DNA of 7,464 nt from an uncultured Bacilli bacterium. Lineage in GTDB: Bacteria; Bacillota_I; Bacilli_A; RF39; UBA660. A program made the position numbers and the translations under genes. The notes under the pieces are model-generated. The model worked only from the letters and a program-made list of their open reading frames with translations. It did no database searches and was not told where the DNA came from. Location: positions 1 through 7,464 of the forward strand of contig CANQOH010000049.1 of NCBI GenBank assembly GCA_947625425.1, written 5' to 3'. This document shows positions 1 to 7,464 of this stretch, piece after piece (the first letter of the stretch is position 1; every line of letters starts with the position of its first letter).

Positions 1-74
1 CTGATCGAGTTCAAACAGGAGCAGGTCATCGTCCTTCAGCTTTATTTAGATACAAAAAAGGTACTAAGAAATAG
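1..74 (+). CDS. 3' end of an unidentified plus-strand gene (partial)
   Basis: Reading from base 3, a frame stays open from the window edge to a TAG at 72-74 and encodes about 23 residues, including GAGHRPSALFRYKKGTKK. The codons fit a low-GC genome, and the basic Lys-rich tail looks like a natural C-terminus. The frame stops inside the hairpin of a terminator, as expected for two converging genes. Another plus-strand frame is also open here and no start lies in the window, so this is probable rather than certain. I do not recognise the family. Confidence 0.4.
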   Translation, partial: DRVQTGAGHRPSALFRYKKGTKK

Positions 75-84
75 TACTTTTTTT
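54..84. terminator. Bidirectional intrinsic terminator between converging genes
   Basis: A run of A, then GGTACTA, a short AGAAA loop, TAGTAC and a run of T form a hairpin with U-tracts on both strands. The left arm extends by a G-T pair and A-T pairs. It lies directly after the cwlJ stop codon on the minus strand and encloses the stop of the plus-strand partial gene, so it can end transcripts from both sides. Confidence 0.8.
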
Positions 85-505
85 AATACAATTCTTTGCA
101 TGTTCCTGGTTCAGGGACATAGAAGCAATGATTTTTATAAGAACCAGCTAGTTTTTCACCATACCAAGTACTTTTGCATGATTTATTAGTTCCTGGGGCA
201 TAGAACCATAGAGCATGGGTGGCTGGATGGTAATATTCACCATTTAAAACTCTTTTAGCTAGATTTTTTTCAGTAGTAGTTGCACTACCTTGAAATAAAG
301 AACTTTTAGTTCCAACAAATTGATTTGGTTGGTAGATAGCATCAGTTATGGTTCTAATATCAGAAAAAGTAAGACAAGTTGCTAATGCACGATTAACTAC
401 AACATTACCAACCATTAACATACCTAAACTTCCTTCATTTAAAGCTTCAGCACGCATTATTCTAGCTAATAAATCTAATTCTTTAGAAGTATAATTTAAT
501 AACAT
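83..505 (-). CDS. cwlJ: Spore cortex-lytic / cell wall hydrolase, CwlJ type (SleB/CwlJ hydrolase_2 family)
   Basis: This 140-residue protein matches Bacillus CwlJ in length and along its whole sequence as I recall it. Shared blocks include LLARIMRAEA (residues 12-21), GMLMVGNVVVNRA (28-40), IYQPNQF (57-63) and KNHCFYVPEPGTC (124-136). Glu20 in RAEA corresponds to the proposed catalytic Glu of this family. Like CwlJ it lacks a signal peptide. In Bacillus, CwlJ degrades the peptidoglycan cortex during germination and needs the coat protein GerQ; no gerQ is visible here. The start is supported by AGGTGA six bases upstream. A terminator lies between it and the lipoprotein gene upstream, so it probably has its own promoter, which I cannot place with confidence. 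A vegetative wall-remodelling role serving the neighbouring surface operon is an alternative. Confidence 0.88.
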   Translation of the reverse strand: MLLNYTSKELDLLARIMRAEALNEGSLGMLMVGNVVVNRALATCLTFSDIRTITDAIYQPNQFVGTKSSLFQGSATTTEKNLAKRVLNGEYYHPATHALWFYAPGTNKSCKSTWYGEKLAGSYKNHCFYVPEPGTCKELY

Positions 506-513
506 AAATATTC

Positions 514-526
514 ACCTATTATAGGT
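514..526. promoter_or_regulatory. 13-bp perfect dyad overlapping the cwlJ ribosome binding site
   Basis: ACCTAT and ATAGGT flank a single base. One arm shares four bases with the AGGTGA ribosome binding site of cwlJ (512-517, minus strand). It could be a small operator, or an RNA hairpin with five pairs and a three-base loop that hides the ribosome binding site. The function is inferred only from position and symmetry. Confidence 0.4.
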
Positions 527-539
527 TATGATTATTTAT

Positions 540-566
540 AAAAAAAGATAATCTATTAATTATCCT
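540..566 (-). terminator. Intrinsic terminator at the end of the four-gene operon, overlapping the lipoprotein stop codon
   Basis: On the minus strand GATAAT and ATTATC form a six-pair stem around a six-base loop, preceded by A residues and followed by seven T residues. The TAA stop of the upstream lipoprotein gene lies in the loop. The stem is AT-only and therefore weak, so partial readthrough into cwlJ is plausible. Confidence 0.65.
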
Positions 567-1200
567 TTTTGCTTTGTTTTCTTGATACTAAAAGAGCTAA
601 AATTAATATTAAGAAAATCCCAAATACTATTATCATTTTAATAGTTAATTTTTTCTCTTTATATTCTTTCTTTTTATTAATTCTAATACTAAGTGGTTTA
701 TTTTTATAATTATCTTTGTTTATTACCCAAGTATAAGTATTTTTATCTACTTTATCGGCATTAGAATTAGTTATTTCATATTTACTTGTTATATTGATAG
801 TTACTTCTTCTATTTCGGGATAGTAATCAAAACAAGTAAATTCATTGCTAGTATTTAATGTTATATAATCACCATTTTGAAAATTGAATTCATCATAGCA
901 TTTTTGTAATTGGGTATACATGTTATAATCACTATAATTAAAACCATAAGTGTAATTATAACCAGTATTATTACCTTCATAGAATTTTTCTCTTTTGTAG
1001 TAATCATATCCAAATTCAAAGTTATATAATTCATCACTAGCTTTTTGAATTGTTGCTTGATCAGCACTTTCTATAAGGGCATTATCAGTATATATTTTTA
1101 TTGATTCATTTATTTCGTTACTATCAAAGGAAATATTATATGTGGCTTTGCATCCCGTTAATAAAAGAACAAGAATAATTAATAATAATATTTTTTTCAT
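556..1200 (-). CDS. Lipoprotein with C-terminal membrane helix, module copy A
   Basis: The 214-residue product starts with a lipoprotein signal peptide ending in the lipobox LTGC, so Cys17 should be lipid-modified. A hydrophobic helix near residues 189-205 is followed by a basic tail, so the protein is probably anchored to the outer face of the membrane at both ends. The exposed part holds two further cysteines (101 and 123) that could pair. It is clearly paralogous to the lipoprotein gene at 2230-2889: shared landmarks include FNY (87-89), KCY (100-102), DYY (125-127), LTINI-like TINI (134-137), SNAD (146-149) and TW.IN with NYKNKPL (164-170). It begins nine bases after the preceding membrane-protein gene, whose TAG stop overlaps its ribosome binding site (TAGGAG). 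I do not recognise a named family; similarity to LppM-like lipoproteins (DUF3153) is a weak possibility. Confidence 0.85.
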   Translation of the reverse strand: MKKILLLIILVLLLTGCKATYNISFDSNEINESIKIYTDNALIESADQATIQKASDELYNFEFGYDYYKREKFYEGNNTGYNYTYGFNYSDYNMYTQLQKCYDEFNFQNGDYITLNTSNEFTCFDYYPEIEEVTINITSKYEITNSNADKVDKNTYTWVINKDNYKNKPLSIRINKKKEYKEKKLTIKMIIVFGIFLILILALLVSRKQSKKDN

Positions 1201-1209
1201 AAATTACTC

Positions 1210-2226
1210 CTATTCAACTACGTTAACATGAAGTCTTACCATACTTTTTATTTCGTCAAAATTAGATGTTTTTTGGAAAGAAGTTTGAGATAGTATTACT
1301 TCATCTTTAGTTGTTTCATTTCCAGTTATAACCCATTCATAAGTATCTGAGTCAATAAATGTAGAAGCATCGTTACGATTTACAAACGGATATGAAGAAG
1401 CACTTAAGTAATTGCGCCATCCACTTTGTCCATCAGCAGTTGTTCTAGTAAGTAATTGATTTTCCCCACAACGATCAGTAACTTTTACTTGAATACGAGC
1501 TGTTTCACCTTTCTTTATAGTAATACTAGCATCTTGACCTAATTCTTGGCCATTATATGTTAATGTTTGAGTTTGAGCTCTTTTGCCACATGAAGCATCT
1601 ACTGTTCCATTTCCTGAACTTATATTGCTAAAGTTGCCAGTACTATTAATTCCTGGGGTAGTATTGCTAGATCCGCCAGAAGAGTTTCCGCCACCACTAG
1701 ATTCTCCGGTTGAAGTTCCACCACTTGGAGTTCCACCACCAGTAGTACTACTTGGACCCATACCAGTACTTGGTTCAGAAATTTGATTATTTTTATAGAA
1801 ATCACGTTCTTGTTGTTCTTTAATTTGCTTTTTTAATAATAATTCTTGTCCTTCGATTCTATTTTGAATTAAAGAAGCTTTTTGTTCTTCATTATATAAA
1901 ACATTTAAAGCTCCTATTTTTTCAGTAGAAGCATTATTATAATAATAACTTATTTTAGAACTATCAAAATCTTCTATTAAAGTAAAAGCATAACTGATTA
2001 TAGTTGGGAGTAAAAAGATAGTTAAAGCAGATATGGTTCTTGTAGCAATTCTTTTAAGATTAGTTTTATTATTATCAGGTTTTAAAACAATCTCAACTAA
2101 ATCTTTAATTACTAATATAATTAACATTAAAGGAACTACAATAAAAATTATATTTAAGGCTATTTTTAAGATTAAAAACAATCTAAATATTCCTATATCT
2201 GTTAATGTATCTAAAAAATAAAACAT
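1210..2226 (-). CDS. Two-helix (VirB2/TrbC pilin-like) membrane protein with Gly/Ser linker and C-terminal beta-type domain, module copy A
   Basis: The 338-residue protein has four parts. Residues 1-85 contain two hydrophobic helices (about 22-43 and 63-83) joined by a short basic loop; the VP...I..IKD and R..SA..IFLLPTII patterns resemble TrbC/VirB2-type pilin-like proteins, which is a family guess. Residues 86-145 are charged and probably helical. Residues 152-207 are a Gly/Ser/Thr/Asn linker. Residues 208-338 look beta-rich, with Cys213 and Cys253, an alternating KKGETARIQVKVTDRC stretch and a closing RLHVNVVE strand, suggesting an Ig-like fold. The first 117 residues match the membrane protein at 2899-3894 closely, but the C-terminal domains are unrelated. 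The start lies three bases after the preceding lipoprotein stop, with the AGGAAAGGG ribosome binding site inside that gene's end. Function is unknown; display of a domain outside the cell is inferred. Confidence 0.82.
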   Translation of the reverse strand: MFYFLDTLTDIGIFRLFLILKIALNIIFIVVPLMLIILVIKDLVEIVLKPDNNKTNLKRIATRTISALTIFLLPTIISYAFTLIEDFDSSKISYYYNNASTEKIGALNVLYNEEQKASLIQNRIEGQELLLKKQIKEQQERDFYKNNQISEPSTGMGPSSTTGGGTPSGGTSTGESSGGGNSSGGSSNTTPGINSTGNFSNISSGNGTVDASCGKRAQTQTLTYNGQELGQDASITIKKGETARIQVKVTDRCGENQLLTRTTADGQSGWRNYLSASSYPFVNRNDASTFIDSDTYEWVITGNETTKDEVILSQTSFQKTSNFDEIKSMVRLHVNVVE

Positions 2227-2229
2227 ATA

Positions 2230-2889
2230 TTATTTCCCTTTCCTTTTTATATCTTTCTTATTTATTATATAAATAATTAGCAAAAGAATAAAGAGAATTA
2301 TGATTAAAATTTGTTTTAAATCTACATTTTTATCTTTTGGTTTTTCATATGTTTCTTGAAGATTTATTTTTAAATTTAATGGTTTGTTTTGATAATTTGA
2401 TTTATTTATATTCCAAGTAAGGGTATTATCTTTTGTTGAGTCAGCATTTGAACTAATTACTTTTTTATCTGTTTTAATATTAATTGTTAGATTATTAACA
2501 TCTTGATAGTAGTCTTTGCAAAGAAATTTGTTACTTGTAGTTAAAATTATTTCTTTATCATTGTAGGTGAAGTTAAAGTCTTCATAGCATTTTCTAATTT
2601 GACTCATAGCATCGTATTCGTCATAGTTAAAATCATATTTGTATAAGTAACCAGTTATTTTATCAGTTGTATAGACTTCTCTAGTATAGTGGTCATGACC
2701 TCTTTCCCATTCAAGTATTTTATTACTGAAGCTATCAATTGTAGCTTGAGTAGCATTATTAACTGTTTCAGTATCAGTAAATACTCTTATTTCATCTTTT
2801 ATTTTGTCTTCAGTAAATTCTATATCATATGTAGCACTACATCCTGTTAAGAGAATTGTTAGTAAAAATAGTAATAATATTTTTTTCAT
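2230..2889 (-). CDS. Lipoprotein with C-terminal membrane helix, module copy B
   Basis: The 219-residue product has a signal peptide ending in LTGC (lipidated Cys17), an exposed domain with Cys101 and Cys124, and a C-terminal helix near 193-209 followed by KKDIKRKGK. Its paralogue lies at 556-1200; by eye they share roughly four to five residues in ten, with nearly collinear landmarks (FNYDEY, RKCYEDFNF, KDYY, LTINI, SSNAD, TWNINKSNYQNKPL). The ATG is five bases after a perfect AGGAGG that overlaps the TAG stop of the upstream membrane-protein gene, implying translational coupling. It is the second gene of the operon. The constant pairing of each lipoprotein with a two-helix membrane protein suggests that the two partners interact. 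No named family is recognised. Confidence 0.85.
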   Translation of the reverse strand: MKKILLLFLLTILLTGCSATYDIEFTEDKIKDEIRVFTDTETVNNATQATIDSFSNKILEWERGHDHYTREVYTTDKITGYLYKYDFNYDEYDAMSQIRKCYEDFNFTYNDKEIILTTSNKFLCKDYYQDVNNLTINIKTDKKVISSNADSTKDNTLTWNINKSNYQNKPLNLKINLQETYEKPKDKNVDLKQILIIILFILLLIIYIINKKDIKRKGK

Positions 2890-2898
2890 ATTTTCCTC

Positions 2899-3894
2899 CT
2901 AACATGGAACATTACAAGCACCAAAGGATCCACCGGTTACTTGAAGTGGTTCAATGTGCCATGCTTCCCAAGATAATCTAAATGTTAAACCATAACTTTC
3001 AGCATTGGCATGGGCCCATTTAGCAGTTGCGTTGCAATCCCACGATCCGCCACAACCTGTTCCATTAAATGATAAGTCGGCAGCAATACCAAAATTATGT
3101 CTTGATCCGCCAGGGCAGGCTACCCATTTTGGTCTTTCTGAGCATGAATGGGTATCGTTGTTCCATAAATTCAATTGACTAGAATATGAACGCCATCCAC
3201 TAGTAACTGTTATGTTGTACCCTTGTGATTTAGCAGCACTTAAGAACTTACTTAATCTTTCCCAAAAAATAGGATTTAATCCGTATTCGCCTGATTGTTT
3301 AGGAGCATCAGCATCAGATCTAGCTCTTTGATTTGGAACATTAAAAACACCATTTGTAACTGTTACGGAACCAAAAGTACCACCAGATTGTGAATCGCCA
3401 GTATAAGTTCCGCCTGATGTCCCATTTGCTTGGTTATTCATTTCGTTTTCTTTACGTAATTCTTCAGTTTGTTCACGACGCTTTTCTTCTTCTTGATTCT
3501 TTTTCAGAACAGCTTCTTTAGCTTCAGCAAGACGTTGAGCTTGAGCTGCTTTTTGTTCTTCTTCATATTGCTTTTCTAAACTCTTAATTTTATCGACTGA
3601 TGCATTTGTATAATACTTTAAAATAGTACTATCATCATATGATTCAATTAAAGAAAAAGCATAACCAATGATAGTTGGTAATAGAAAGATAATTAATCCA
3701 CTTACTAAGCGTGAAACAATATCATGAATTGTCTTACCTGGAGAATCAGGTTTAATGACTAACATAAATAAATCTTTAGTAGCCATTATAATAACTATTA
3801 TAGGTACTATAATAAAAACAATATTTAATGCATATTTTAGTATTAAAAATACTCGATATATGCCTATATCAGCAAAAGTATCTAAAAATATCAT
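2899..3894 (-). CDS. Two-helix (VirB2/TrbC pilin-like) membrane protein fused to an M15 peptidase (VanY-like) domain, module copy B
   Basis: This first gene of the operon encodes 331 residues. Residues 1-85 hold two membrane helices (about 20-40 and 62-82) close in sequence to those of the protein at 1210-2226. Residues 100-152 form a charged, probably coiled-coil segment. A Gly/Ser/Thr linker (158-180) leads to an M15 domain at about 205-317. The zinc site is complete: the SxHxxGxAxD motif is SRHNFGIAAD (264-273) with His266 and Asp273, and EAWHIE (310-315) supplies catalytic Glu310 and His313. SGWRS (232-236) is the usual substrate-side motif. M15 enzymes cut D-Ala-D-Ala or L-Ala-D-Glu bonds in peptidoglycan stem peptides; which one applies here cannot be read. 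Six cysteines at 251-331 suggest disulfides in an exported domain. AGAGG lies eight bases before the ATG. Confidence 0.88.
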   Translation of the reverse strand: MIFLDTFADIGIYRVFLILKYALNIVFIIVPIIVIIMATKDLFMLVIKPDSPGKTIHDIVSRLVSGLIIFLLPTIIGYAFSLIESYDDSTILKYYTNASVDKIKSLEKQYEEEQKAAQAQRLAEAKEAVLKKNQEEEKRREQTEELRKENEMNNQANGTSGGTYTGDSQSGGTFGSVTVTNGVFNVPNQRARSDADAPKQSGEYGLNPIFWERLSKFLSAAKSQGYNITVTSGWRSYSSQLNLWNNDTHSCSERPKWVACPGGSRHNFGIAADLSFNGTGCGGSWDCNATAKWAHANAESYGLTFRLSWEAWHIEPLQVTGGSFGACNVPC

Positions 3895-3913
3895 AGTATC
3901 AACCTCTTATATA

Positions 3914-3922
3914 ATTATAACA
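3914..3922 (-). promoter_or_regulatory. Alternative extended -10 promoter for the minus-strand operon
   Basis: On the minus strand TGTTATAAT is a perfect extended -10 element. No good -35 box lies 16-18 bases upstream, and the predicted start near 3907 would leave almost no leader before the ribosome binding site at 3903-3906. It is therefore listed as the weaker alternative to the promoter at 3937-3964. Confidence 0.35.
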
Positions 3923-3936
3923 TTATTTTACTAAAA

Positions 3937-3964
3937 TTTATATTGACGTATAGTAGTATAGCAA
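3937..3964 (-). promoter_or_regulatory. Candidate sigma-A promoter of the four-gene envelope operon
   Basis: On the minus strand TTGCTA (3964-3959) and TATAAA (3942-3937) are separated by 16 bases. A start near 3930 would give a leader of about 36 bases containing the AGAGG ribosome binding site of the M15 gene. Its -35 box is three bases from that of the divergent promoter at 3968-3996. Confidence 0.45.
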
Positions 3965-3967
3965 ATC

Positions 3968-3996
3968 TTTACTTTTAGCATATATTAATTTATAAT
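3968..3996 (+). promoter_or_regulatory. Sigma-A promoter of the coiled-coil protein gene
   Basis: TTTACT (3968-3973) and a perfect TATAAT (3991-3996) are separated by exactly 17 bases. Transcription should start near 4003, leaving a leader of about 30 bases that holds the ribosome binding site. This is the best-formed promoter in the window, implying a well-expressed gene. Confidence 0.75.
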
Positions 3997-4017
3997 AGTT
4001 GTATAAAAAAATTATTT

Positions 4018-4026
4018 GAAAGGAGA
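4018..4026 (+). promoter_or_regulatory. Ribosome binding site that selects the second ATG (4033)
   Basis: GAAAGGAGA ends directly before an ATG at 4027, which is too close for initiation. The ATG at 4033 lies seven bases after GGAG, the usual distance, and gives a signal peptide that starts with the typical MKR. The start was therefore set at 4033. Confidence 0.75.
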
Positions 4027-4032
4027 ATGTAT

Positions 4033-5625
4033 ATGAAAAGGTTGTCAGTTAAGTCTGTTGCTGGATTATTTTTAGTTTCTGGATTAGCAGCAAGTGCTTA
4101 CGCCGTTGTGACAAATTTCAATAAGGGAGGAGATTTCTTTACTTATTCTAATGAGGTAGGTAGTAAAGCGACTTTGAATTATACAGAAAAAGAAATACTT
4201 GAAAAGGTTACTTCTGTTTTAGAAGCACAAAATGCAGTAGCTGTTGCTGTAGAAAATGATGAGGCAGTAGTTGAAGCTGAAGCCGCTGTAGAAGCAGCTG
4301 CCGAAGAGGAAACTAAAGCTAATGAAGAATTAGAAGCCGCTACTGAAGCTGTATCTAAAGCTGAAGAATCAAAGAAAGCTGCTGATAAAGCAGTAACAAA
4401 AGCAGCAGAAGATAAGAAAGCTGCTGAAGCCGCTGCCAAAGCTGCTGATAAAGCTAAAGAAGAAGCTGCTCAAAATTTAAAATCAGCACAAGCTGCAGCA
4501 CAAGCTGCTGCAAAAGCAGAAAAAGCTGCTGAAGCTGAATTAAAAAATGCTAAAACTGATGCAGAAAAGAAAGCTGCTGAAGCTAAATTAAAAGCTGCCG
4601 AAGAAGCCGCTAAGAAAGCAGAAGATGAAAAGAAAGCTGCTGAAGTTGCTAAGAAGAAAGCTGAAGTAGAAAAACAAAAGGCTGAAGCAGAGAAGAAAGC
4701 TGCAGATGAAGCCGCTGCCAAAGCAGCTGCAGATAAGAAAAAAGCTGAAGAAGCTGCTGCAAAAGCTGCCGCAGAACAGAAAGCTGCCGAAGAAGCCGCT
4801 GCCAAAGCTGCTGCTGAAAAGAAAGCTGCCGAAGAAGCCGCTGCCAAAGCTGCTGCTGAAGCTAAAAAGAAAGCTGAAGAAGATGCAAAAAGAAAAGCTG
4901 AAGCTGAAGCTGCAAGTCAATCACAAGCTAATTCTTTACCTCAATGGGCATTAGATGCTGCTGCTAGAGCAGAAGCTGCCGAAAAAGCTAAATTAGAAGC
5001 TTTAGAACAAGAGAAAAAAGATGCCGCTGCTAAAGCTAAAGCAGAAAGAGAAGCTGCAGAAAAAGCTGCAAAAGAACAAGCTGAAAAAGAAGCTCAAGAA
5101 AGAGCTGCTAGAGAATCTGAAGAAAGCTTAAAGAAAGCTGAAGCAGAAAAGAAAGCTGCTGAAGAAAAGGCTGCAGAAGAGGCTAAGAAAAAAGCTGAAG
5201 AGGAAGCTAATAAACCAAAAGTTAAATTATCTGATGCTGAAAGAGCACAAATAATTTCTACAAGTTGGGCTATTACTTCAACACCTACGGCTACTATAAT
5301 GGATACAATTGGTGTTGTAAGAGATGTAAATTTAGATGCTGAAACACTTAAGATGTATAATAACGGAGCTGGAATTATCTGGTTTGCGGATTTCTCATGT
5401 GATACATCTCGTTGTGTCGGATTTAAGGGTGGACAAGGCTTTGTTAGAGAAGGTAGACGTGGAGACGTTACTTCTATTACAATGACTGCTCCTGCTGCAA
5501 AACCTGGCTATGTATTTAGAGGTTGGAAACTTTCTAGAATAGAAGAGTATCAAGGAAAAGACTTAAAAGGTAATACATTAACTGTACGTATTCCATCATA
5601 TGAAGCTCTATACGAACAAGAATAA
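4033..5625 (+). CDS. Secreted Ala/Lys/Glu-rich coiled-coil surface protein with C-terminal InlB-repeat-like domain
   Basis: The 530-residue product begins with a signal peptide of about 24 residues (basic start, hydrophobic core, then ASAYA as a probable cleavage site). From about residue 50 to 392 it is almost entirely Ala, Lys and Glu in heptad-like order, a predicted long coiled coil resembling TolA or other rod-like surface proteins in composition only. The rod is interrupted once, at SQSQANSLPQW (295-305). Four tandem 14-residue units (two heptads each) lie near 222-277. The last 138 residues (393-530) are different: a Cys456-x4-Cys461 pair, and near the end PGYVFRGWK followed by YEALYE, resembling the close of InlB B/Flg_new surface repeats. 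No LPXTG or membrane anchor is visible, so attachment would be non-covalent or through a partner. It is divergent from the envelope operon and ends in a strong terminator. Binding partner and function are unknown. Confidence 0.85.
   Translation: MKRLSVKSVAGLFLVSGLAASAYAVVTNFNKGGDFFTYSNEVGSKATLNYTEKEILEKVTSVLEAQNAVAVAVENDEAVVEAEAAVEAAAEEETKANEELEAATEAVSKAEESKKAADKAVTKAAEDKKAAEAAAKAADKAKEEAAQNLKSAQAAAQAAAKAEKAAEAELKNAKTDAEKKAAEAKLKAAEEAAKKAEDEKKAAEVAKKKAEVEKQKAEAEKKAADEAAAKAAADKKKAEEAAAKAAAEQKAAEEAAAKAAAEKKAAEEAAAKAAAEAKKKAEEDAKRKAEAEAASQSQANSLPQWALDAAARAEAAEKAKLEALEQEKKDAAAKAKAEREAAEKAAKEQAEKEAQERAARESEESLKKAEAEKKAAEEKAAEEAKKKAEEEANKPKVKLSDAERAQIISTSWAITSTPTATIMDTIGVVRDVNLDAETLKMYNNGAGIIWFADFSCDTSRCVGFKGGQGFVREGRRGDVTSITMTAPAAKPGYVFRGWKLSRIEEYQGKDLKGNTLTVRIPSYEALYEQE
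4696..4863 (+). repeat. Four tandem 42-bp (14-codon) repeats inside the coiled-coil gene
   Basis: Units begin at 4696, 4738, 4780 and 4822 and encode variants of KAAEEAAAKAAAEK. The last two share 39 identical bases in a row (4780-4818 and 4822-4860), including the same synonymous codon choices, which points to recent duplication rather than protein-level constraint. The first two have diverged. Confidence 0.85.
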
Positions 5626-5635
5626 TATACAAAAT

Positions 5636-5668
5636 AAAAACTTCTTATTTAACATAAGAAGTTTTTTT
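5636..5668 (+). terminator. Strong intrinsic terminator after the coiled-coil gene
   Basis: CTTCTTAT (5641-5648) and ATAAGAAG (5654-5661) form an eight-pair stem around TTAAC. It is flanked by five A residues and followed by seven T residues, so it also works on the minus strand. It begins ten bases after the stop codon. Confidence 0.9.
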
Positions 5669-5697
5669 ATGGAAAAATAATACTGGATTGTAGATTA

Positions 5698-5746
5698 AAA
5701 ATGGGAGAGGTGGTTGGAGTTGAACCCACAATAGCGGTTTTGGAGA
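5698..5746 (-). pseudogene. Decayed 3' half of tRNA-Trp (candidate att site)
   Basis: This stretch aligns without gaps to 7353-7401, the intact tRNA-Trp 3' half plus four flanking bases, with 42 of 49 positions identical. It includes two perfect blocks of 15 and 14 bases covering the T-loop and the anticodon loop. Similarity stops abruptly at the base corresponding to the last 5' anticodon-stem position, and the 5' half is missing, so no tRNA can form. The acceptor part has drifted most: discriminator G to C, and a lost T-stem pair. It has the same orientation as the intact gene. It is most simply the displaced 3' end left when an element integrated into tRNA-Trp. Confidence 0.8.
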
Positions 5747-5856
5747 GAAGATGTTTATATTCCTATATTATTCACCTATATATTTTGGATCAATTTTAAA
5801 TTTATCTAGTTACTTTTTTGTTAACTTTGTATTGCTTTATTTTTAACAATTTTATT
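5747..5856. other. AT-rich non-coding stretch between the tRNA fragment and the repeat array
   Basis: About 110 bases, very AT-rich. I see no convincing gene, promoter or RNA. TTGTTAA (5818-5824) and TTAACAA (5843-5849) form a loose inverted repeat that could be chance in such sequence. Confidence 0.5.
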
Positions 5857-5949
5857 AAAAGTGGGTACAAAAAGGTGTAAATTTTAATAAAAAGTGGGTA
5901 CAAAAAGGTGTAAATTCCAACGAAAAGTGAGTACAAAAAGGTGTAAATA
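5857..5949 (+). repeat. Three direct repeats with a 33-bp period upstream of the DUF4143 gene
   Basis: A 27-base unit, AAAA followed by GTGGGTACAAAAAGGTGTAA and three more bases, occurs at 5857-5883, 5890-5916 and 5923-5949. The first two are identical; the third has two changes (GTGAG for GTGGG, and the last base). The spacers differ, so constraint appears to act on the units. The 33-bp period is close to three helical turns, placing the sites on about the same DNA face. Each unit contains the small inverted pair TACA...TGTA. The last copy abuts the predicted -10 box. They are probably binding sites for a regulator, perhaps the ATPase itself. Confidence 0.85.
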
Positions 5950-5951
5950 TA

Positions 5952-5960
5952 TGATATTAT
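5952..5960 (+). promoter_or_regulatory. Candidate extended -10 promoter of the DUF4143 ATPase gene
   Basis: TGATATTAT matches the extended -10 pattern TGnTAnnnT. The -35 region 17 bases upstream falls inside the third direct repeat and is poor (TACAAA), which would suit a promoter dependent on an activator bound at the repeats. The leader would be only about 14 bases. Confidence 0.4.
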
Positions 5961-5969
5961 GGATATATA

Positions 5970-5977
5970 GAGGTGAT
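5970..5977 (+). promoter_or_regulatory. Ribosome binding site that sets the DUF4143 start at 5981
   Basis: GAGGTGAT is a near-perfect match to the 16S anti-SD sequence and lies at normal distance from the ATG at 5981. An upstream in-frame GTG at 5894 would instead translate the direct repeats and has no comparable site, so the shorter protein was chosen. Confidence 0.85.
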
Positions 5978-5980
5978 TCT

Positions 5981-7297
5981 ATGAAAAGAAAAATTTATAA
6001 TGACTTACTTAAATGGAAAGAGAAAAAAGAATTTAAACCTTTAATTGTTTTGGGGGTTAGACAATGTGGTAAGTCTTACATAATTAATGAGTTTTGTAAG
6101 AATGAATTTAAACATTATAAAAAAATAAATTTATTCCAAGATACAAAAGTAATTGATTTATATAAATCTAGTGATGATTCAGATAAAAAATATCAAGATT
6201 TAAAATTATTACTAAATTTTGATTTCGATATGGAAGATAGTGTTTTATTCATAGATGAAATACAAGAGTGTGAAGAATTAATTTCTGAATTAAAATATTT
6301 TAATGAGAAACATAGTAATGTTAGGATTATTTGTGCTGGTTCTTTATTAGGTGTAAAACTAGCAAGGTTAACAAGGCCTTTTCCCGTAGGTAAGGTATCA
6401 AGATTGTATATGTATCCAATGGATTTTGAAGAGTTTTTAATTGCTTTTAATGAGGAAATGTTATTAAACAGAATAAAAGAATGCTTTGATTATAATCAAA
6501 CTATGGGGATCTTACATAATAAAGCACTTGATTATTATAAAAAGTATTTATTGTCAGGTGGTATGCCAGAAAGTATAAAAGAATTAATTAATGTAAAAGA
6601 TGCCTATTATTATAATCTTGAAGTTTTAAATGATATTGTTGCCGATTATCAAAATGATATGAATAATCATGTTACAAATGCTGTTGAAACTTTAAAATTA
6701 AATAAGATATATAATTCTTTACCATCTCAATTACAAAATGCTTCAAAGAAATTTCAATATTCTATTGTTGATTCAGATGCTAAATCAAGAGAGTATTCTA
6801 CACCACTTAATTGGTTAGAAGCAAGTAATATGGTACAAATAAGTAAATGTATAAAAATACCACAGAAACCCTTATTAGGTTTTGTGGATGAAGGAACATT
6901 TAAAGTGTATTATTCAGATGTTGGTATATTTAATAGAATATTAAATAACGATATAAAAACTATTCTTTTAGATGAAATGAATTTATATAGTGGTATTATT
7001 GCTGAGAATTATGTTGCAAATCAGTTAAAATCAAGTGGAATAGATTTATTATATTGGAGAGGTACTAGAGATGCTGAAATTGATTTTTTAATTACTACTC
7101 CTAATGATGGAATAATACCAATTGAAGTTAAAGCTGGAGAGAATACACAATCAAAGAGTTTAAAAGTTTATGATGAATTATATCATCCAAATTATATGAT
7201 TAGAATTAGTTCAAAGGATTTTGGATATAATTCAGAGACAAGAATTAAATCAATTCCGTTATATGCTGCATTCTTAGTAAAAAAATTAGTTGATTAA
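5981..7297 (+). CDS. AAA-type ATPase with C-terminal DUF4143 domain
   Basis: The 438-residue protein has an N-terminal AAA_14-type P-loop domain: Walker A GVRQCGKS (25-32), Walker B VLFIDE (88-93) and a sensor-like IICAGSLLG (116-124). The middle and C-terminal part is DUF4143, recognisable by YLLSGGMPE (189-197), GIIAENYVANQL (338-349) and DAEIDFLI followed by IPIEVKAG (364-386). Asp368, Glu382 and Lys384 in that last block have PD-(D/E)xK nuclease-like spacing, a known feature of this family whose activity is unproven. The length and all motifs indicate an intact gene. Such ATPases are common, patchily distributed and of unknown function; links to mobile DNA or defence are often suspected. 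It stands alone, with three upstream repeats and its own terminator, between tRNA-Trp and a tRNA fragment. Cytoplasmic. Confidence 0.9.
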   Translation: MKRKIYNDLLKWKEKKEFKPLIVLGVRQCGKSYIINEFCKNEFKHYKKINLFQDTKVIDLYKSSDDSDKKYQDLKLLLNFDFDMEDSVLFIDEIQECEELISELKYFNEKHSNVRIICAGSLLGVKLARLTRPFPVGKVSRLYMYPMDFEEFLIAFNEEMLLNRIKECFDYNQTMGILHNKALDYYKKYLLSGGMPESIKELINVKDAYYYNLEVLNDIVADYQNDMNNHVTNAVETLKLNKIYNSLPSQLQNASKKFQYSIVDSDAKSREYSTPLNWLEASNMVQISKCIKIPQKPLLGFVDEGTFKVYYSDVGIFNRILNNDIKTILLDEMNLYSGIIAENYVANQLKSSGIDLLYWRGTRDAEIDFLITTPNDGIIPIEVKAGENTQSKSLKVYDELYHPNYMIRISSKDFGYNSETRIKSIPLYAAFLVKKLVD

Positions 7298-7315
7298 GGA
7301 TTATATTTAATCTAT

Positions 7316-7345
7316 AAAAAACCTAGTATCTTACTACTAGGTTTT
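7316..7345. terminator. Bidirectional terminator between the DUF4143 gene and tRNA-Trp
   Basis: CCTAGTA (7322-7328) and TACTAGG (7335-7341) form a seven-pair stem, extended by A-T pairs on both sides. It has T tracts on both strands, longer on the minus strand, so it can end both the ATPase transcript and the converging tRNA transcript. Confidence 0.85.
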
Positions 7346-7356
7346 AAATTTCAAAA

Positions 7357-7430
7357 TGGCAGGGGTAGCAGGAGTTGAACCCACATCAGCGGTTTTGGAG
7401 ACCGACGTTCTACCATTGAACTATACCCCT
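7357..7430 (-). tRNA. trnW: tRNA-Trp (anticodon CCA)
   Basis: A complete 74-base cloverleaf with a perfect seven-pair acceptor stem (AGGGGTA with TACCCCT), D stem GTTC/GAAC, anticodon loop CTCCAAA (CCA, reading UGG), T loop TTCAACT, discriminator G and encoded CCA. It resembles Bacillus tRNA-Trp closely. The lowest anticodon-stem pair is a U-C mismatch, and the T stem has two G-U pairs. The 3' half recurs at 5698-5746. Confidence 0.96.
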
Positions 7431-7448
7431 AAAAAATGTAACAATTTC

Positions 7449-7457
7449 ATTATAGCA
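7449..7457 (-). promoter_or_regulatory. Extended -10 promoter of tRNA-Trp
   Basis: On the minus strand TGCTATAAT is a perfect extended -10 box, placing the start near 7442, about a dozen bases before the mature tRNA 5' end. The -35 box would lie beyond the window edge. Confidence 0.7.
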
Positions 7458-7464
7458 TAAAACT

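Follow-up and report, generated by a model that had tools for sequence, protein, structure and literature searches.

The 7,464 nucleotides analysed here (the window; contig CANQOH010000049.1 of an uncultured Bacilli bacterium) carry a lone ATPase gene of the AAA_14-DUF4143 type, which lies between an intact tRNA-Trp gene and a decayed copy of the 3' half of that tRNA. The explanation we favour, with modest confidence that goes somewhat past an even balance, is that two things of separate origin overlap at this place, an older tRNA-Trp scar and a mobile, self-regulated single-gene cassette of defence type. The evidence that carries this reading comes from the ends of the cassette in other genomes, from its presence and absence as a whole block in a pair of sister genomes, and from the linkage of the gene to a repeat array just upstream of it. 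The features concerned, in positions of the window, are as follows.

5698..5746, minus strand: decayed copy of the tRNA-Trp 3' half, from anticodon loop to CCA (42/49 identity)
5747..5839, no strand: spacer of about 93 bp separating the tRNA fragment from the cassette, with no tRNA 5' half detectable
5840..7301, plus strand: cassette conserved between genomes, consisting of the array and the open reading frame (ORF) (91% DNA match in genome G038)
5850..5882, plus strand: array repeat 1, 33 nt (repeat search)
5883..5915, plus strand: array repeat 2, 33 nt (94% to repeat 1)
5916..5948, plus strand: array repeat 3, 33 nt (82% to repeat 1)
5949..5980, plus strand: −10-like TATGAT and ribosome-binding stretch, from the array to the start codon (sequence reading)
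5981..7297, plus strand: GVRQCGKS-type AAA_14-DUF4143 ATPase, PDC-S01 candidate (Pfam; PADLOC; AlphaFold2)
7316..7345, no strand: hairpin and T-run, probable terminator common to the ATPase and tRNA-Trp (sequence reading)
7357..7430, minus strand: intact tRNA-Trp with CCA anticodon and encoded CCA (ARAGORN; Rfam tRNA 65.6 bits)

Ends and proposed movement of the cassette

The cassette ends were sought by a DNA search of window positions 5690-7464 against 145 genomes of a related family. The 91% identity to G038 is limited to 5840-7301, that is to the array and the ORF with the tRNA fragment excluded, and six further long matches start at 5838-5890 and end at 7215-7322; matches of greater divergence start later. 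All seven long matches begin at the array, at least about 90 bp inward of the fragment, and end near the stop codon. Among the matches listed only a short, weak one extends from the array into the spacer (query 108-165, G092).

In one pair of sister genomes the block is present and absent as a whole. In G001 the 1521 bp that separate smpB from a yqfC-like gene contain an array, an ATPase and a hairpin terminator, whereas in the sister G385 (smpB 97% identical) the same gap is 48 bp, the flanks of the two being identical at 375/400 and 287/300 positions. The extra block of 1473 bp starts just past the T-run that closes the smpB terminator and extends through the T-run of the cassette terminator, and the insert is bordered by T-runs (TTTTTT and TTTTTTT) that leave target-site duplication and microhomology ambiguous; the locus has neither a tRNA nor an integrase. 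Taken from these comparisons, it is most likely that the array, ORF and terminator are gained or lost together, in intergenic positions and without need for a tRNA. When flank sequences joined across the insert were searched in 386 genomes, for four loci in full and a fifth in part, the G001/G385 pair alone spanned the join among the matches listed. At the ruvA locus ruvA is present in 10 of the 12 genomes searched (recognised by script in 9) with an array behind it in G348 only, and no precise junction was found there, gene order being variable and the G348 contig ending soon after the ATPase; the G353/G003 locus gave matches in 3 of 7 genomes and no informative sister. An earlier reading of the window from its letters alone (the sequence-only reading) named a lack of empty sites as an outcome that would refute it; for the family that outcome is contradicted by G385, which is empty at another locus, while the locus of the window itself is not comparable within the species. 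A tandem duplication of a membrane-protein gene with array and ATPase is seen in G019 (L190 2758-7115), the first ATPase copy being reduced to its C-terminal end.

The tRNA bracket is not a regular companion of the gene. Flanks were compared for 104 distinct ATPase ORFs, 93 of them with long enough flanks, and a long flanking direct repeat was found in the window only (1/93, score 32), followed by L077 with 22.5, from a stretch that resembles a terminator, and L236 with 22. A tRNA gene lies within 600 bp of the ATPase in three of 122 loci that have an ATPase match (1.29 Mb, some overlapping), namely the window, L127 (G038) and L050. Together with the start of homology at the array and the empty site that has no tRNA, the rarity of the bracket speaks against the earlier proposal that the bracketed 1655 bp are themselves a mobile unit. 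The earlier account of what the bracket holds stands, in that the ORF listing agrees with one gene with its own repeats and terminator and no integrase: the ATPase frame is the sole ORF of at least 60 residues wholly within the interval on both strands, and none of the ORFs inside it is a tyrosine integrase. No transposase ORF was found at the window cassette, nor inverted repeats of at least 16 nt with arms at both of its ends.

The upstream array and its ATPase

The ATPase ORF is listed from a GTG at 5894 and its start is taken as the ATG at 5981, giving 438 residues with AAA_14 and DUF4143 domains. The PADLOC model PDLC04786 (PDC-S01) gives a full-length match (residues 1-435, E 6.2e-134), and the architecture predicted by AlphaFold2 is AAA+, winged helix and PD-(D/E)XK nuclease fold (predicted local distance difference test score, pLDDT, 92.3). 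An earlier model built with 22 close sequences had a pLDDT of 45.9 and was not used, and a PDB sequence search gave nothing better than E 0.043. Residues E342, D368, E382 and K384 are invariant in an alignment of 45 sequences, drawn from the window plus 44 of 80 loci (a stop within the stretch led to the omission of L048 and L077, and others were dropped for compactness). An AAA+ module followed by a winged helix is the arrangement of the MNS/STAND ATPases, and the fusion of the ATPase to a PD-(D/E)XK fold, seen in the invariant residues and the predicted fold, is that of PDC-S01, so that on sequence grounds the protein is a candidate for phage defence of the PDC-S01 type. No relatives of the ATPase were found in viral contigs; the 26-base array repeat pattern has no viral match and a 17-base part of it has six. 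A phage or plasmid origin was considered and rejected, the matches listed (20 of 75 phage and 20 of 88 plasmid records) falling on the tRNA.

Arrays, called as tandem repeats of score at least 15 and period 31-34 upstream of an ORF, precede 49 of the 76 ATPase ORFs that have at least 120 bp upstream (from 80 loci and the window), as against 3 of 711 other ORFs of the same loci, and these three are two further ATPases and one divergent gene that shares the array. In L024 a single array separates two divergent genes and could serve as a control element for the pair; in L014 (about 9840-10000 and 11309-11420) an array flanks one ATPase on both sides with shared flanking sequence, as though a neighbour had been lost and its array had stayed behind alone. 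The motif comparison took 62 arrays minus two duplicates (L040, L201), and the periods of the 60 distinct arrays are 33 in 49, 32 in nine and 34 in two, with an AAAnGTG core in 42 of the 60 compared with 2% of shuffled units. Across these 60 arrays motif similarity increases with protein identity (Spearman 0.51, Mantel p 0.001), as would be expected were each protein to read an array of its own. The window-type motif has 43 matches in 20 of 386 family genomes and a reversed control has 3; an intact or decayed ATPase follows the motif in 16 of the 20 genomes, and in G224 the motif runs to the contig edge.

The arrays are moreover specific to one subfamily of DUF4143 genes. Among classed loci a score of at least 15 is reached by four of five GxRQ genes and by none of 19 other DUF4143 genes (ten GxRR, eight GPK and one other); in this set of 30 loci L258 was unanalysed and L233, L234, L235, L241 and L245 were unclassable, L241 scoring 12.2 and L240 11.6. 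The GxRR type makes up 11 of the 104 distinct ATPase ORFs. Eight of the ten DUF4143 places of the 1.3-Mb genome G001 were examined (two were not fetched), and its three GxRQ paralogues carry three different 33-nt motifs; likewise the L017 contig has two ATPases and two motifs. G423 (1.1 Mb) has seven DUF4143 matches, several Walker-A types occur in these genomes, and among the genes examined in G001 and G423 the arrays are confined to GxRQ types.

In the scheme that we think most likely the ATPase would be a silent sensor-nuclease and the array its self-operator at the promoter. The winged helix would recognise the protein's own array, and with the array probably overlapping or abutting the promoter such binding would repress the protein's own synthesis; sensing and switching might then fall to the AAA+ STAND-like module, and the PD-(D/E)XK domain would cut nucleic acid when triggered, in the style of one-gene defence. 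It is also conceivable, and we think unlikely, that each GxRQ DUF4143 ATPase-nuclease forms an autonomous mobile element of one gene, which would bind the 33-bp array at its left end, cut with the PD-(D/E)XK domain and insert the block of array, ORF and terminator behind terminator T-runs, with a private motif in each lineage setting it apart from its paralogues.

The tRNA-Trp fragment and the probable site before insertion

The match between 5698-5746 and 7353-7401, alike at 42 of 49 positions in the same orientation with an offset of 1655, was reproduced as the sequence-only reading had described it, and a repeat search gives a longer pair, 52 nt at 85%. As background, rescanning window 1-7300 and 100 shuffles gave a runner-up site of 25/49 and a top shuffle of 28/49. 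Identity per ten-base block from the CCA side is 9, 6, 10, 8, 9 and then 3, 2, 3, 3, and this abrupt drop (9/10 to 3/10) puts the sharp edge of the match at the anticodon loop, from which it runs through the CCA just as had been claimed. Over its 45 nt of tRNA sequence the copy departs from the intact 3' half at seven positions, and the intact half is itself identical at 45/45 positions to several relatives. At three of the seven the base of the copy is absent from all 21 distinct tRNA-Trp sequences compared, two of those three positions being invariant across the 21, and the copy must therefore have decayed; the Rfam tRNA model does not report it even at an E of up to 10.

The marks of tRNA-targeted integration, as given in the available part of PMC4383910, are a regenerated tRNA and a displaced 3' fragment in the same orientation, on the 3' side and centred on the anticodon. 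The window has an intact tRNA with a displaced fragment of the same orientation on its 3' side, and the edge of this fragment falls at the anticodon loop, which along with the T region is a place of crossover for islands of this kind. The fragment is probably the scar of an old integration at tRNA-Trp, a decayed 3' half at the former end of the gene, and the attachment signature earlier proposed for it agrees both with these marks and with the gene order of G160 around a homologue of the gene upstream.

4027..5625, plus strand: Ala/Lys/Glu-rich surface-type protein gene (C-terminal part 41% identical to the G160 homologue, E 1.5e-21)

In G160 the homologue of this gene is followed by a terminator and tRNA-Trp with nothing intervening, and in the window by the tRNA fragment, the ATPase and the intact tRNA-Trp; the fragment therefore occupies the place expected of a displaced tRNA end. 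No half-tRNA copy above 27/49 was found in the 14-kb G160 contig. The intergenic lengths differ (76 vs 175 bp), and the arrangement is, as far as the gene orders go, one of synteny with a relative rather than a strict empty site.

Further off in the window, positions 83-505 hold a SleB-type hydrolase homologue, 6.8 kb from tRNA-Trp on its 3' side and in the other orientation; a SleB-type hydrolase match occurs in twenty of the loci taken around tRNA-Trp (L098-L154) and, where inspected, stands beside the tRNA 5' end. Positions 556-3894 hold two adjacent pairs of lipoprotein and membrane protein that resemble a duplicated module, and one partner has a VanY domain, with a best match of 37% among 31 genomes and no close host genome.

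Alternatives and relation to known systems

The same observations could be had from an ATPase that is the surviving cargo of a larger tyrosine-integrase element in tRNA-Trp, its integrase and the rest having been deleted. This is possible, though we hold it as a tentative alternative: the displaced 3' fragment with its anticodon-centred edge and right orientation and side, the G160 order without an insert, and the ATPase remnant that G038 likewise has at tRNA-Trp would all follow from it, but no other element gene is left and elsewhere the cassette moves without a tRNA. Nor do the wider surveys help it, the tRNA-Trp 3'-half pattern being matched once each in 32 of 193 genomes with no further scar, and no matching half-tRNA being present in the G038 contig (best 24/49). 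In 35 listed tRNA-Trp 3' flanks (two overlapping and three shorter than 70 bp, with up to four ORF starts each judged) no tyrosine integrase was recognised by eye. One serine recombinase was recognised among these flanks, in L097 (G021), with its start 565 bp beyond the tRNA-Trp 3' end. The idea of tRNA-Trp as a hot spot in the family was rejected, its 3' flanks being variable and a second scar not found.

It is doubtful that the fragment is what remains of a tandem second tRNA-Trp, with the cassette inserted between the copies and the 5' half removed thereby. The orientation is the same, and CACCTAT at 5773-5779 could by reading pair with 6 of 7 bases of the fragment's acceptor strand; however no 5' half stands above chance, 918 of 5000 shuffles doing as well, the best ungapped match near the expected place is 13/29, and none of the 32 pattern-matching genomes has two tRNA-Trp genes. 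For a uniformly decayed second tRNA a match of 13/29 would have a binomial P of 3e-7. A full second tRNA-Trp, which the sequence-only reading had itself raised against its account, is disfavoured by this 5' half at chance level and by the sharp edge of the fragment. As for that account, in which the 1655 bp are a satellite of minimal size, moved in trans by an integrase for which the tRNA-Trp half is the core, a unit bounded by two tRNA 3' halves and holding a single gene with its own promoter array and terminator is what it would predict; yet one bracket among 93 ATPase ORFs, cassette boundaries that differ from it, and a decayed fragment diverged at 7 of 49 positions make it the least supported reading and a very improbable one.

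Several findings nonetheless weigh against a separate, self-regulated cassette. In G038 (contig C27) a decayed ATPase directly adjoins tRNA-Trp at its 3' end, which is the side it takes in the window, with a similar CTAGTA hairpin, by reading, between remnant and tRNA, and because of this remnant the neighbourhood of ATPase and tRNA-Trp may not be chance; an intact 91% ATPase copy is about 1.1 kb from the remnant (L187 7195-7442 and 4648-6112), and the tRNA-Trp there is of a clearly different sequence type (3' half 33/45 vs the window). There is one precise filled and empty pair only. A clear array is missing at score 15 from 27 of the 76 ATPase ORFs and from the GxRQ gene L237, while G313, G360 and G369 have a single motif match and no ATPase in the fetched stretch, and simple linkage could partly explain why motif and protein track each other. 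A TATAAT-like hexamer (at most one mismatch) between array end and ATG is present in 58 of the 60 arrayed relatives vs 69% of shuffled tails, a moderate enrichment that lends a promoter weak support, and because the hexamer is thus less telling our confidence in the favoured explanation was lowered by a very small step.

As to known systems, the window resembles iteron-type origin or operator arrays in its short direct repeats, which adjoin a gene for a probably DNA-binding AAA+ protein, and differs in that its array is on the promoter side and no plasmid backbone is seen in the window. From the archaeal ATPases of PDB entries 2qen and 2fna, which we take to be those of the MNS/STAND clade, the window protein differs by an added C-terminal PD-(D/E)XK domain and by the promoter array. 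Islander-type tRNA islands, so far as described in the accessible text of PMC4383910, share with the window the regenerated tRNA, the displaced 3' fragment, the anticodon-centred edge, the orientation and the side; they differ in that the window has no integrase and its ATPase homology has its boundaries elsewhere, and in published data their sizes peak at 13.6 and 39.9 kbp vs 1.7 kb here. With PDC-S01 the window shares the full-length match to the hidden Markov model and the ATPase fused to PD-(D/E)XK as described, whereas the promoter array, the restriction to GxRQ and the clean single-gene insertion go unmentioned in the portion of PMC12988326 at hand. In the open-access literature searched, within the text available, no description of an array upstream of DUF4143/PDC-S01 genes was found.

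By frequency across prokaryotes PDC-S01 is ranked fourth among defence entries in that same portion, validation being pending for most such candidates (PMC12988326). The present case counsels some caution, in that a tRNA fragment beside a gene is not necessarily a mark of the element by which that gene arrived. An array that is specific to a subfamily, distinct between paralogues and travelling with its gene offers a handle on the recognition target of these proteins and on how they are silenced.
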